From contig NZ_LR792632.1 of NCBI RefSeq assembly GCF_902827225.1, positions 1,259,030-1,323,029 of the forward strand: DNA of 64,000 nucleotides. Direction: 5' to 3'. The position numbers were made by a program, and so were the translations under genes. This DNA is from Methanocaldococcus lauensis. GTDB lineage: Archaea; AGJL01; Methanococci; Methanococcales; Methanocaldococcaceae. The notes under the pieces were generated by a model that saw only the letters and a program-made list of their open reading frames with translations, was not told the DNA's origin and ran no database searches. Positions 4,922 to 20,039 of this stretch are shown here, piece after piece; positions within the stretch are counted from its first letter, which is position 1, and every line of letters begins with the position of its first letter.

Positions 4922-5623
4922 ATGAAGTTTATTAAAAAGAATGATATTGATTTTGATGAACCAATAATAATAGAGGCATTTCCTGGAACTGGATTAGTTG
5001 GAAGTATCGCCGCCTACCAAATAATAAAAGAATTGAAATTAAAATACTTTGGATACTTTGAAATAGAGGGAATTCCTCCAATAACTACAATTGAAAATGG
5101 GACTCCCTATCCACCAGTAAGGGCTTATGCAAATAAAAATTTAGTTATACTCTTTTCAGATGTAATTATACCACCAAACAGTATTAATAGATTAGCTGAA
5201 TTAATAGTAAAAACTTTTTCAGATAATAAGCCAAAGTTATTCGTTTCACTTGGTGGATTAATTGCTGGGAAATCAGAAAAAGTTTTTGGAATAGCCAACA
5301 AAGAGAAATTATTGGAAAATTTAAAAAATTATGTTGAAATATTTAATTTTGGAGTTTTAGGAGGAATTAGTGGAAATTTATTAATAAAATGTGACGATAA
5401 CGGATTTGACGCTATTGCACTCTTGGCAGAAACTGTAGGAGTTCGACCAGATCCAAGAGGAGGAGCCAATTTATTAGAAGTATTAAATAAAATGTTTAAT
5501 TTAAATGTTAATGTTGAAAGTTTAATCAAAGAGGCAGAAAATATAGAAAACAAACTCAAAGAATTGGCTGAACAACATTTAAAGATGATGTCTAAGAAAA
5601 AGGAATATCCAATGTATATTTAG
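4922..5623 (+). CDS. PAC2-family protein (proteasome assembly chaperone-like)
   Basis: A 233-residue protein of the PAC2 family (COG1938). The hallmark N-terminal segment EAFPGTGLVGSIAAYQII is clear, as are PPVRAY, a Ser-Leu-Gly-Gly loop (FVSLGGLIAGK), GVLGGISG and LAETVGVRPDPR. Eukaryotic relatives chaperone 20S proteasome assembly; archaeal members are assumed to bind proteasome subunits, but their role is not established. The ATG at 4922 is preferred over a TTG at 4910 because GGTGGAAG lies between them. The last 30 residues are charged and helical. Its stop codon abuts a palindromic repeat mosaic. Confidence 0.88.
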   Translation: MKFIKKNDIDFDEPIIIEAFPGTGLVGSIAAYQIIKELKLKYFGYFEIEGIPPITTIENGTPYPPVRAYANKNLVILFSDVIIPPNSINRLAELIVKTFSDNKPKLFVSLGGLIAGKSEKVFGIANKEKLLENLKNYVEIFNFGVLGGISGNLLIKCDDNGFDAIALLAETVGVRPDPRGGANLLEVLNKMFNLNVNVESLIKEAENIENKLKELAEQHLKMMSKKKEYPMYI

Positions 5624-5854
5624 CCCCATAGAGGGGGCGTAGCCCCCTCTATTGGGATACTCCCCCATTAGTTTGTATTTTTATTTCCATAGGGCTCTGC
5701 CCTATTGTTATACGCCGCATAGAGGGAAACCCTCTATTGCTATACTCCCTAACACCTCTGCCTTTGGCAGAGGTGTAAATTTAGGTATCCCAATAGGACG
5801 AAGTCCTATGGTTCGGATACCCGGGATGCATTATCTCGCTTCGCTCGATAATGC
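5624..5854. repeat. Palindromic repeat mosaic A (about six hairpins)
   Basis: The bases directly after the PAC2 stop form consecutive hairpins: AGAGGGGGC/GCCCCCTCT, ATAGGGC/GCCCTAT, AGAGGG/CCCTCT, CACCTCTGCC/GGCAGAGGTG, ATAGGAC/GTCCTAT and GCATTATC/GATAATGC. Most are separated by short linkers of the form TTGGGATAC or GGTATCC. The unit at 5784-5821 is a 38-nt nested palindrome beginning GGTATCCC and ending GGATACC. An 89-codon frame can be read through it but has no protein character. Related elements occur at 11747, 14287 and 19173. GC content is far above the neighbours. Confidence 0.85.
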
Positions 5855-11723: not shown

Positions 11724-11999
11724 GTTTCCATCCTTGTTTTAATAAACCCATAGGAGGGTTCCACCCTCCTATTGGTATACCTCCCATATTAAGCCTGCTT
11801 TTTTAATTTAGGGTATAGGGCATAGCCCTATGGCCATAGAGGGCAGAGCCCCCTATTGGTATACCCCCAGAGTATTCTATTTTTTATTTGTTATTCCTTA
11901 TTTTAATGGACTAAGTATTCAAACCCATATAGAAGATGAAGAAAATGATAATTGGAATCAAAGTTTCCATCCTTGTTTTAATGGACTAACGATTCAAAC
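11724..11999 (-). CRISPR. Decayed CRISPR remnant (three partial or whole repeats, one clear spacer)
   Basis: A 37-nt repeat starting GTTTCCATCCTTGTTTTAAT and ending ATTCAAAC is complete at 11963-11999. A degenerate copy is at about 11888-11924 and a 5' half at 11724-11743. The whole and degenerate copies enclose a 38-nt spacer-like segment (11925-11962). The half copy and the degenerate copy are separated by palindromic mosaic B. Read on the minus strand the repeat ends in GGATGGAAAC, the usual 3' handle of archaeal type I/III repeats, so the remnant was probably transcribed leftward; a TATA-like CTATATAAATC at 12034-12044 fits a leader on the right. The repeat differs from that of the array at 13101. 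Confidence 0.65.
11747..11868. repeat. Palindromic repeat mosaic B (three hairpins)
   Basis: Hairpins CATAGGAGGGT/ACCCTCCTAT with linker TGGTATACC, then TAGGGC/GCCCTA, then ATAGAGGG and CCCCCTAT followed by TGGTATACC. This is the same architecture as mosaic A. It sits inside the decayed CRISPR repeat tract, right after the first 20 nt of a repeat copy, which suggests insertion into a repeat. Confidence 0.75.
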
Positions 12000-14286: not shown

Positions 14287-14448
14287 CATTGCTTCCTTTA
14301 GGAAGCAATGCATCGGGAGTATCCCGAACCATAGGGCTTCGCCCTATTAGGATACCCAAAATTAAACAAAAAATGCAAATATTCGGAGGTATTCCGAACC
14401 ATAGGGGGTGAAACCCCCTATGGAGCAATAGAGGGTATCCCTCTATGC
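14287..14448. repeat. Palindromic repeat mosaic C, overlapping the argF stop codon
   Basis: Hairpins in order: CATTGCTTCC/GGAAGCAATG, CGGGA/TCCCG, ATAGGGC/GCCCTAT followed by TAGGATACCC, CGGA/TCCG, CATAGGGGGT/ACCCCCTATG, and ATAGAGGG/CCCTCTAT. The design (ATAGG-type stem plus GGTAT or ATACC linkers) matches mosaics A, B and D. The last hairpin supplies the final codon and stop of argF. Confidence 0.8.
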
Positions 14449-15357
14449 TTTAAATATAAATTTAAATACTCCTTTTTGAACATGTAATCTATTTTCTGCC
14501 TCATCATAGACAACTGAATGTTCTCCATCAATTACATCGTCAGTTATTTCAAGTCCTCTATTTGCTGGAAGACAGTGCATAACGATTACATCATCTTTGG
14601 CATACTCTAATAATTTATTATTTATTTGGAATGGAGGAAATACTTTTAAAACTTCCTCTTTATTTTTCTCATCACCCATACTTACCCAAACATCAGTATA
14701 TAGTATATCAGCATCTTTTGCGGCATCTATTGGATCGTTAGTTAAAGTTAAAGAACCTTCTCCGTACTCTTCAATAATTTCTTTTGCCTTTAATACTACT
14801 TGGGCATTAGGCTCATAACCTTTTGGTGTTCCCACATATATATCCATTCCTACTAAGGCAGAACCTAAAATTAAAGAATTACATACATTATTTCCATCTC
14901 CTAAGTAAGCAATTTTTAATCCTTTAAATTTTCCCTTATATTCTTTTATTGTCATTAAATCAGCCAATATCTGACAAGGATGAGCCAGATCACTTAGTGC
15001 ATTTATTACTGGAACTGACGAATACTTAGCCATCTCCTCTAAATCTCTATGCCTATAAACTCTTGCCACAATTGCATCTACATATCTACTCATAACCCTT
15101 GCTGTATCTTTTATTGACTCCTTCTTTCCTAAATGTATCTCATTTTGATTCATTATTAAAGGATGACCTCCTAACTCATAAACAGCAATATCAAAACTCA
15201 TTCTTGTTCTTGTTGAGGGTTTTTCAAATAATATTGCCACACTCTTACCATCTAAAACTTTTTCGTGTTTTCTTCTATTTTTTTTAAAATATATTCCATA
15301 GTCAATAATTTTCAATACATCCTCCCTACTCAAACAATCTAAGTCCAAAAGATGCAT
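14443..15357 (-). CDS. argF: Ornithine carbamoyltransferase
   Basis: ArgF condenses carbamoyl phosphate with ornithine to citrulline in arginine synthesis, as a cytoplasmic trimer. The 304-residue protein shows the carbamoyl-phosphate motif STRTR (48-52), HPCQ (near 125), the ornithine-side loop DVWVSMGDE and HCLPANRG near the C-terminus, all intact. An AGGTGATATA ribosome site precedes the ATG. The stop codon TAG and the last residue are supplied by the flanking palindromic mosaic C, so the very end of the protein may have been reset by that element. It is monocistronic, divergent from the methyltransferase gene. Confidence 0.96.
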
Positions 15358-18811: not shown

Positions 18812-18885
18812 TATTTCCACCTATCTTAAACTATATAACTGTAAGTTTTTATTTATATTCGGCTTATAAAATGATGGTGATAATT

Positions 18886-19170
18886 ATGGATAATCTTATT
18901 GACATTTCAATTATTGGATACATTGCTGGAACTTTAACGACCTTTGCCTCTCTACCTCAACTAATAAAATCTTTGAAAGAGAAAGATATGAGTAACATCT
19001 CATTGACATTTGTAATAACATTTACTACTGGATTATCTCTTTGGTTAGTGTATGGAATATTAAGAAATGATTATCCAATAATAGTATTTAACATTTTATC
19101 TTTAATGTTTTGGATACCTATAACTTATTTAAAAATAAAGGATACTCTGAAGAAAAGAAAACTTAGTTAG
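18886..19170 (+). CDS. SemiSWEET-type (PQ-loop) transporter with rebuilt C-terminus
   Basis: A 94-residue three-helix protein of the MtN3/SWEET family: TM1 about 5-25 ending with the PQ motif (SLPQLIKSL), TM2 about 36-57, TM3 about 62-82. Bacterial SemiSWEETs form dimers that move sugars; the substrate in archaea is unknown. Start ATG at 18886 is preferred because GGTGATAATT lies directly before it. The last codons (IPITYLKIKD...) occur a second time after a palindromic element 44 bp downstream, just before the next gene, so this end was duplicated. Confidence 0.82.
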   Translation: MDNLIDISIIGYIAGTLTTFASLPQLIKSLKEKDMSNISLTFVITFTTGLSLWLVYGILRNDYPIIVFNILSLMFWIPITYLKIKDTLKKRKLS

Positions 19171-19253
19171 CAGGTATAGCAATAGGACGAAGTCCTATGC
19201 TTGAGATACCTATAACCTATTTAAAAATAAAAGATGAACTTAAAAAAAAGAAA
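19113..19253 (+). repeat. 49-bp direct repeat flanking a palindromic element
   Basis: The segments 19113-19161 and 19205-19253 match at about 42 of 49 positions, each starting GATACCTATAAC. The first copy encodes the SemiSWEET C-terminus; the second encodes the same peptide (IPITYLKIKD) but has no start and ends at the phosphatase gene. The 38-nt palindromic element D lies between them and its last GATACC is the start of copy two. Confidence 0.85.
19173..19210. repeat. Palindromic element D (single 38-nt unit)
   Basis: A nested palindrome: GGTAT at the left end, ATACC at the right end, core ATAGGAC-gaa-GTCCTAT. It has the same length and the same core as the unit at 5784-5821 in mosaic A, differing only in the linkers. 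This is the simplest copy in the window and defines the unit. Confidence 0.85.
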
Positions 19254-19274
19254 AAAATTATGAGATGGTCAGTT

Positions 19275-20039
19275 ATGAAATGGGATGAAATTGGAAAAAA
19301 TATTGCTAAGGAAATTGAGAGTTCAATATTAAAGTATTTTGGGAAAAAAGAGAAATCTTATGTTGTTGGAAAATCTCCGAGTGGTGATGATACAGAAATT
19401 TTTGATAAAATAAGTGAAGATATTGCCTTAAAGTTTTTGAAACCTTTGAATGTAAATATTGTTAGTGAAGAAATTGGAATTATAGATAATGGTAGTGAAT
19501 GGACTGTTGTTATAGACCCAGTTGATGGTTCATTTAATTTTATAAATGGAATTCCATTCTTTGCCTTTTGTTTTGGGGTTTATAAGAATAATAAACCTTA
19601 CTATGGATTAACATATGAATTTATAACTAAAAGCTTTTATGAGGCATATTATAAAAAAGGAAGTTATTTAAATGGAGAAAAAATTAAAGTTAAAGAATTC
19701 AACCCTAATGACATAACTATAAGTTACTATCCTAATAATAAAACAGATATTAATAAATTAAGAGATAAAGTTAAAAGAGTTAGAATATTTGGGGCATTTG
19801 GTTTAGAGATGTGTTATGTGGCAAAAGGTTCCTTAGACGCTGTTTTAGATATAAGACCAAAAGTTAGAGCAGTTGATATTGCCTCCTCATATATAATATG
19901 TAAGGAGGCAGGAGCATTAATAACTGACGAAAATGGAAAAGAACTTAAATTTAAATTAAATGCAACAGATAGATTAAATATTATTGTAGCAAATAGTAAG
20001 GAAATGTTAAATATGATATTGGAAACATTACAAAAATAA
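19275..20039 (+). CDS. suhB: Inositol-1-monophosphatase / fructose-1,6-bisphosphatase (SuhB family)
   Basis: A Mg2+-dependent phosphatase acting on inositol monophosphate and, in characterised archaeal members (MJ0109-like), also on fructose-1,6-bisphosphate. The 254 residues show the metal site EEIG (about 63-66), DPVDGSFNFI (about 80-89) and the C-terminal RAVDIASSYIICKEAGA. I start at ATG 19275 (MKWDEIGKN) because it matches the family N-terminus. Longer in-frame starts read through the duplicated SemiSWEET tail and palindromic element D. The insertion separated the gene from its former upstream partner, and no good ribosome site is left, only GATGGTCAG. It converges with pyk. Confidence 0.9.
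   Translation: MKWDEIGKNIAKEIESSILKYFGKKEKSYVVGKSPSGDDTEIFDKISEDIALKFLKPLNVNIVSEEIGIIDNGSEWTVVIDPVDGSFNFINGIPFFAFCFGVYKNNKPYYGLTYEFITKSFYEAYYKKGSYLNGEKIKVKEFNPNDITISYYPNNKTDINKLRDKVKRVRIFGAFGLEMCYVAKGSLDAVLDIRPKVRAVDIASSYIICKEAGALITDENGKELKFKLNATDRLNIIVANSKEMLNMILETLQK

Follow-up and report, generated by a model that had tools for sequence, protein, structure and literature searches.

Probable insertion of a palindromic element with long target duplication at the end of a SemiSWEET gene in Methanocaldococcus lauensis

At the junction between a SemiSWEET-type gene and a suhB-like gene in Methanocaldococcus lauensis, a small, non-autonomous palindromic mobile element was probably inserted into the last SemiSWEET codons, duplicating its target. 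Filled sites of the element family carry the target DNA from the element 3' end onward twice, and empty sites carry it once. Insertion favours a TT...AAA motif, the duplication is long and variable, and the 3' end of the insert is fixed (CTATGG or CTATGC). The window analysed here is the whole stretch of 64,000 nucleotides, and its genome is referred to as G000. Comparisons within the genus used genome searches and the sequence stretches around the matches; G005 (Methanocaldococcus sp. SG1) belongs to the same species as the window genome. The features of the junction are the following.

18871-19170, + strand: SemiSWEET-type (PQ-loop/MtN3) gene, an ORF whose last codons are the duplicated target
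19109-19161, + strand: left (first) target copy, inside the SemiSWEET gene, beginning at the family target motif TTTGGA
19162-19172, + strand: stretch between the left copy and the hairpin, with the end of the SemiSWEET frame and its stop codon TAG (19168-19170)
19173-19200, + strand: palindromic element core GGTATAGCAATAGGACGAAGTCCTATGC, a match to family model R1, with its 3' end at CTATGC
19201-19253, + strand: right (second) target copy, running on into the ancestral SemiSWEET gene end
19275-20039, + strand: inositol monophosphatase-family gene (suhB-like; PF00459, E = 3.4e-34)

The SemiSWEET gene matches PF04193 (E = 4e-10) and PF03083 (E = 1.5e-7) and has orthologues in 14 of 14 genus genomes. 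The original prediction described two imperfect 49-bp copies around a palindrome, and these copies (19113-19161 and 19205-19253) indeed match at 40 of 49 positions, each encoding IPITYLKIKD; a 57-nt version of the repeat, counted from ATG, shows 79% identity between the copies. The palindrome itself, placed at 19173-19210, was also borne out, with a folding z of -5.1 for single-stranded DNA and 0 of 200 shuffles equally stable. Its 3' boundary, however, is better placed at 19200, at the end of CTATGC, than at 19210, given the family-wide position of the right copy described below. With this boundary, TTGAGATACC (19201-19210) corresponds to TTTGGATACC of the gene (19109-19118), from which it differs by two changes. 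The element scores 54.6 bits against the family model (E about 5e-12), and an Rfam search returned no RNA family at the element, the matches in the window being tRNAs and CRISPR repeats only. The stretch at 19162-19172 may be the end of the left copy after divergence or, alternatively, belong to the 5' part of the insert. The left copy is the new SemiSWEET C-terminus, and the right copy kept the old spacer before suhB, whose start is conserved in relatives and is displaced 104 nt from the SemiSWEET stop codon.

The family was described by a covariance model built from 11 copies, with matches counted at E <= 0.1 and rough E-values. On this basis, there are 49 matches in the genome of the window, 10-59 in most other genus genomes, one in G012 and none or marginal ones in G008 and G003, and the element is present in 12-13 of 14 genus genomes. 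G000, G001, G002, G004, G005, G006, G009, G010 and G011 have 24-59 copies each. In the other family of the order, 1 of 22 genomes has a match, which is single and weak. The family is mobile across the genus. Among 120 distinct copies, standard pairing is kept in 98% of the cells at the nine pairs of the model, and changes on both sides of the stem were observed 78 times versus 20 in shuffles; the underlying alignment was fitted to the same family model, which favours the pairing result somewhat. Copies are modular, with a 3' hairpin GGTATnnCAATAG...CTATGG or ...CTATGC that is usually preceded by a second hairpin of several types. Some copies run from CCATAG to CTATGG (L122, L006), and many have a different 5' hairpin. 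The 5' boundary of the insert appears variable, and its 5' side is less regular than the 3' side. Further family units in the window are listed below.

5615-5822, cluster of model matches: 5615-5661 (- strand), 5708-5746 (- strand), 5784-5822 (+ strand)
11737-11781, - strand: family unit with its CTATGG end directly before a CRISPR-type repeat
14318-14459, model matches: 14318-14356 (- strand), 14422-14459 (+ strand)

Several units exactly abutting CRISPR repeats (window:11737-11781; L086-L090, L097-L104), in which CTATGG is followed by GTTTAAAATCAGACC or a variant of it, are found across many G000 and G005 arrays, where the element may belong to a repeated segment at the array ends. In G001, a composite of ~280 bp that starts with CCATAG and has ACCACAGAGTTATTATT on either side (L114:1874-2182) sits between a hisA-like gene and an acetyltransferase-like gene. 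The inverted pair of L114, the one pair examined for an autonomous parent, encloses a hisA-like gene only.

The junction with suhB differs between relatives. A single SemiSWEET gene end without the element, which the original prediction had proposed to look for, was found in G001, G002, G007, G011, G012 and G013, while the gene end is present twice, together with the element, in G000, G005 and G009. In G004, a related element that differs in its loop is accompanied by a second copy of the SemiSWEET end of its own. Elements at the same site in G004 and in the G000 group stem either from one old event common to both, followed by losses, or from more than one hit at this site. In G010, a close relative of G000, the element lies reversed between the same junctions (L012:1458-1496), and the second copy is partly decayed. 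This element is identical to that of G000 at 33 of 38 positions when flipped and at 20 of 38 when unflipped. Hence, inversion of the palindrome in place is the simplest reading that the sequence of G010 suggests. A duplication lacking its element, which had been named as counter-evidence, exists in a weak form only: G006 has a remnant of a second SemiSWEET gene end and no recognisable element, and we read this as decay rather than an independent cause. The gene downstream of SemiSWEET is not suhB in G003 and G008. The two genes were also thought to have overlapped before the insertion. They do overlap in G001 and G012, but in G005 and G009 the older gene end is still preserved in the right copy; its stop codon lies 11 nt ahead of the suhB ATG, an arrangement similar to that of G011. 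Thus, the genes were probably close but non-overlapping in this lineage before the insertion.

Similar duplications were found at many other units of the family. In a first flank test, 59 of 114 distinct copies showed a left-right match of at least 14 versus 4.5 expected when flanks were mismatched between copies. In a second test of 113 copies, a wider left flank was used and the right copy had to begin at or a few bases from the element 3' end. An anchored duplication (score of at least 16) was present in 45 of the 113 copies, and 1.5 were expected from mismatched flanks. The tested copies are mostly best-scoring matches and some are orthologous across genomes, so that not all of them are independent events. 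About half of the family copies have no detectable duplication, and many of these, though not all, are inner units of composite elements. The targets include CRISPR repeats, the ends of protein genes, the 3' ends of tRNAs and a gene start along with its ribosome site; the CRISPR repeats were excluded from the length and motif statistics because they are already repetitive.

Five further genes were compared across the genomes. The end of nob1 is duplicated in G004 only (score of 43; others at most 13), as is the end of flpA (18.5; others at most 11). The start of nikR is duplicated in G006 only (26.5; others at most 10.5), the end of a radical-SAM gene in G001 and G011 only (24 and 30.5; others at most 10) and the end of hypD in G007 only (51; others at most 13.5). 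Second copies of these five genes thus score 18.5-51 in genomes that bear the element and at most 13.5 elsewhere, and in each genome with a duplication the element lies between the copies. The loose flag EL gave chance matches and was left out of this comparison. At the six compared genes including SemiSWEET, the duplication is found together with the element, and the other genomes have a single copy; only decayed copies depart from this pattern. Both the empty sites in relatives and the duplications at other units support insertion with a long target duplication, one of the two origins proposed for the SemiSWEET repeat. The cleanest case is hypD in G007, where the outer copies are identical at 78 of 78 positions and 0 bases are shared beyond the junction; in the close relative G013, whose gene is 97% identical to that of G007, the site is empty and single-copy. 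The hypD end of G007 (L076:1312-1606) has three gene-end copies in total, and the diverged inner one lies inside the insert, after a short additional hairpin, CTTTTTCTAAAAG. This third copy is not accounted for by a single simple insertion. Elements with duplicated tRNA 3' ends occur at L007, L060, L082 and L110, e.g., CCCACCAATCCTTAAATAG, and in G009 (L081) the right copy of a duplicated tRNA 3' end has been lost.

Of 52 non-CRISPR right copies, 26 begin at the very base that follows CTATGN, and most others are at most 5 bases off. In non-CRISPR cases, the alignable duplication is 17-70 bp long with a median of 36 bp, in an alignment window that ended at 70; the overall range is 17-78 bp, with 78 bp being exact at hypD. 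The position where the target copy begins is marked by TTnnnAAA with A/T in front, a motif that is weak yet clear; its information content exceeds that of all 2000 random draws. G occupies position -1 before the target copy at 8 of 35 sites, a frequency near background.

This arrangement bears on the order of events. Tandem duplication of a gene end might have come first, with the element landing between the copies later or arising from the duplication. The element-less remnant in G006 would fit such a course, but in dozens of targets unrelated to one another the second copy begins directly at the element 3' end or only a few bases from it, and no relative has an intact element-free duplication at the six compared genes. 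We therefore regard this course as extremely unlikely. An improbable alternative is the template switch that the original prediction had put forward alongside insertion, in which a nascent strand leaves the gene end, copies an element elsewhere, returns upstream at GATACC and copies the gene end again. The final layout would be identical, and GATACC does occur both within the gene and on the 3' side of the palindrome. However, in the closely related CTATGC elements next to tRNA genes (L110, L082, L007), CTATGC is followed immediately by the target copy. On this comparison, GATACC was rejected as the element's own end and is most plausibly target sequence, and a switch at this word is thus not supported. 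Moreover, inserts end at the fixed word CTATGG/C with a preferred target motif, and the bases ahead of the target copy show no match to the element end, as the count of G at position -1 illustrates. Other copies join directly after CTATGG/C without shared bases, and the hypD junction has 0 of them, although the additional gene-end copy in the hypD insert is what a template switch could leave behind.

Insertion of a mobile element thus remains the preferred reading, and the fixed 3' end, the preferred motif, the long, variable duplication and the lack of microhomology together point to an enzymatic nick, a distant break and fill-in. An enzyme would nick one strand at the TT...AAA motif, the element 3' end would be joined at this nick, the second strand would be opened 20-80 nt away, and gap filling would copy the DNA between both strand openings. 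Through this copying of the target, one of the copies preserves the gene end that was hit. Later changes at this locus are the apparent inversion in place of the element in G010 and the decay of the right copy there. The same geometry is known from target-primed reverse transcription of LINE/SINE-like elements, with a fixed 3' end, a sequence-preferred first nick and a distant second nick. The motif on the 3'-end side, the variable duplication length and the variable 5' part of the insert fit this route. LINE-type insertion, as far as described in PMC6895275, shares with the present family the fixed 3' end, the preferred first nick and the long, variable duplication, which reaches 126 bp for R9. 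However, a search for a reverse transcriptase (RVT_1, PF00078) found it in 0 of 14 genus genomes, with the control search positive in 3 of 14 known genomes. Target-primed reverse transcription is hence a very unlikely source of the duplications. Tentatively, and with some doubt on our part, the enzymatic insertion outlined above might represent an unrecognised, reverse-transcriptase-free mechanism of DNA mobility in archaea that places hairpin elements with a fixed 3' end at a TT...AAA motif and duplicates 20-80 bp of target via distant second-strand cleavage, copying gene ends instead of destroying them.

Eukaryotic LINE-type insertion is characterised by long target duplications whose length varies. 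Their occurrence with tiny archaeal hairpins and no detectable reverse transcriptase points to an insertion mechanism that, as far as the literature search showed, is undescribed. The duplication accounts for elements landing in gene ends (protein genes, tRNA genes and start codons) without destroying them and for elements shifting gene ends and spacers. Furthermore, empty and filled sites in close relatives make the mechanism directly testable. A genetic system is available for M. jannaschii (PMC6616113).

Several known systems resemble the family in part. Like prokaryotic MITEs, it is short, non-coding and present in many copies, with a target duplication and, in some full-length copies, possible inverted repeats (CCATAG...CTATGG). 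Typical MITE duplications are short and of a fixed length for their transposase, whereas those of the present family are variable and span 17-78 bp. REP/BIME elements also form small hairpins and composite arrays. The Y1 transposase of REP/RAYT systems (IS200-type, PF01797) was found in only 2 of 14 genus genomes, one copy with stops, while the element is present in 12-13 of 14. The only intact Y1 transposase in the genus set lies at G006:C1:1030333-1030686 (L195), and the copy with stops is in G013. YPAL/RU-2 of Yersinia is a palindromic element with variable duplications of 3-26 bp in the account given in PMC2229807; by description, its host is unrelated and its duplications are shorter than those of the present family. 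Palindromic repeats with coding potential, termed MJRE, are reported from M. jannaschii (Suyama, Lathe and Bork, 2005, as cited in PMC2229807 and PMC2996958). Compared by description only, in the form in which MJRE are summarised by these citing papers, both are palindromic, repetitive and hosted by Methanocaldococcus. The present family is a palindromic multi-copy repeat of Methanocaldococcus and likely belongs to MJRE. Long target duplications are not mentioned in the passages citing the 2005 work and are not known to be described for MJRE. A search for long, variable duplications with archaeal palindromes found nothing relevant in the literature outside the content of Suyama et al. (2005), and such duplications of an archaeal palindromic element appear to be new.

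A 280-aa ORF starts from the ATG at 19197, at the element 3' end, and would extend suhB N-terminally (window 19197-20039). We considered whether the element supplies the suhB start codon and rejected this, since the frame stays open only in G000, owing to a homopolymer whose length differs by one A in G005 and G009. A true N-terminal extension of suhB is unlikely, and the ORF at 19197-20039 carries a risk of a misannotated suhB start.
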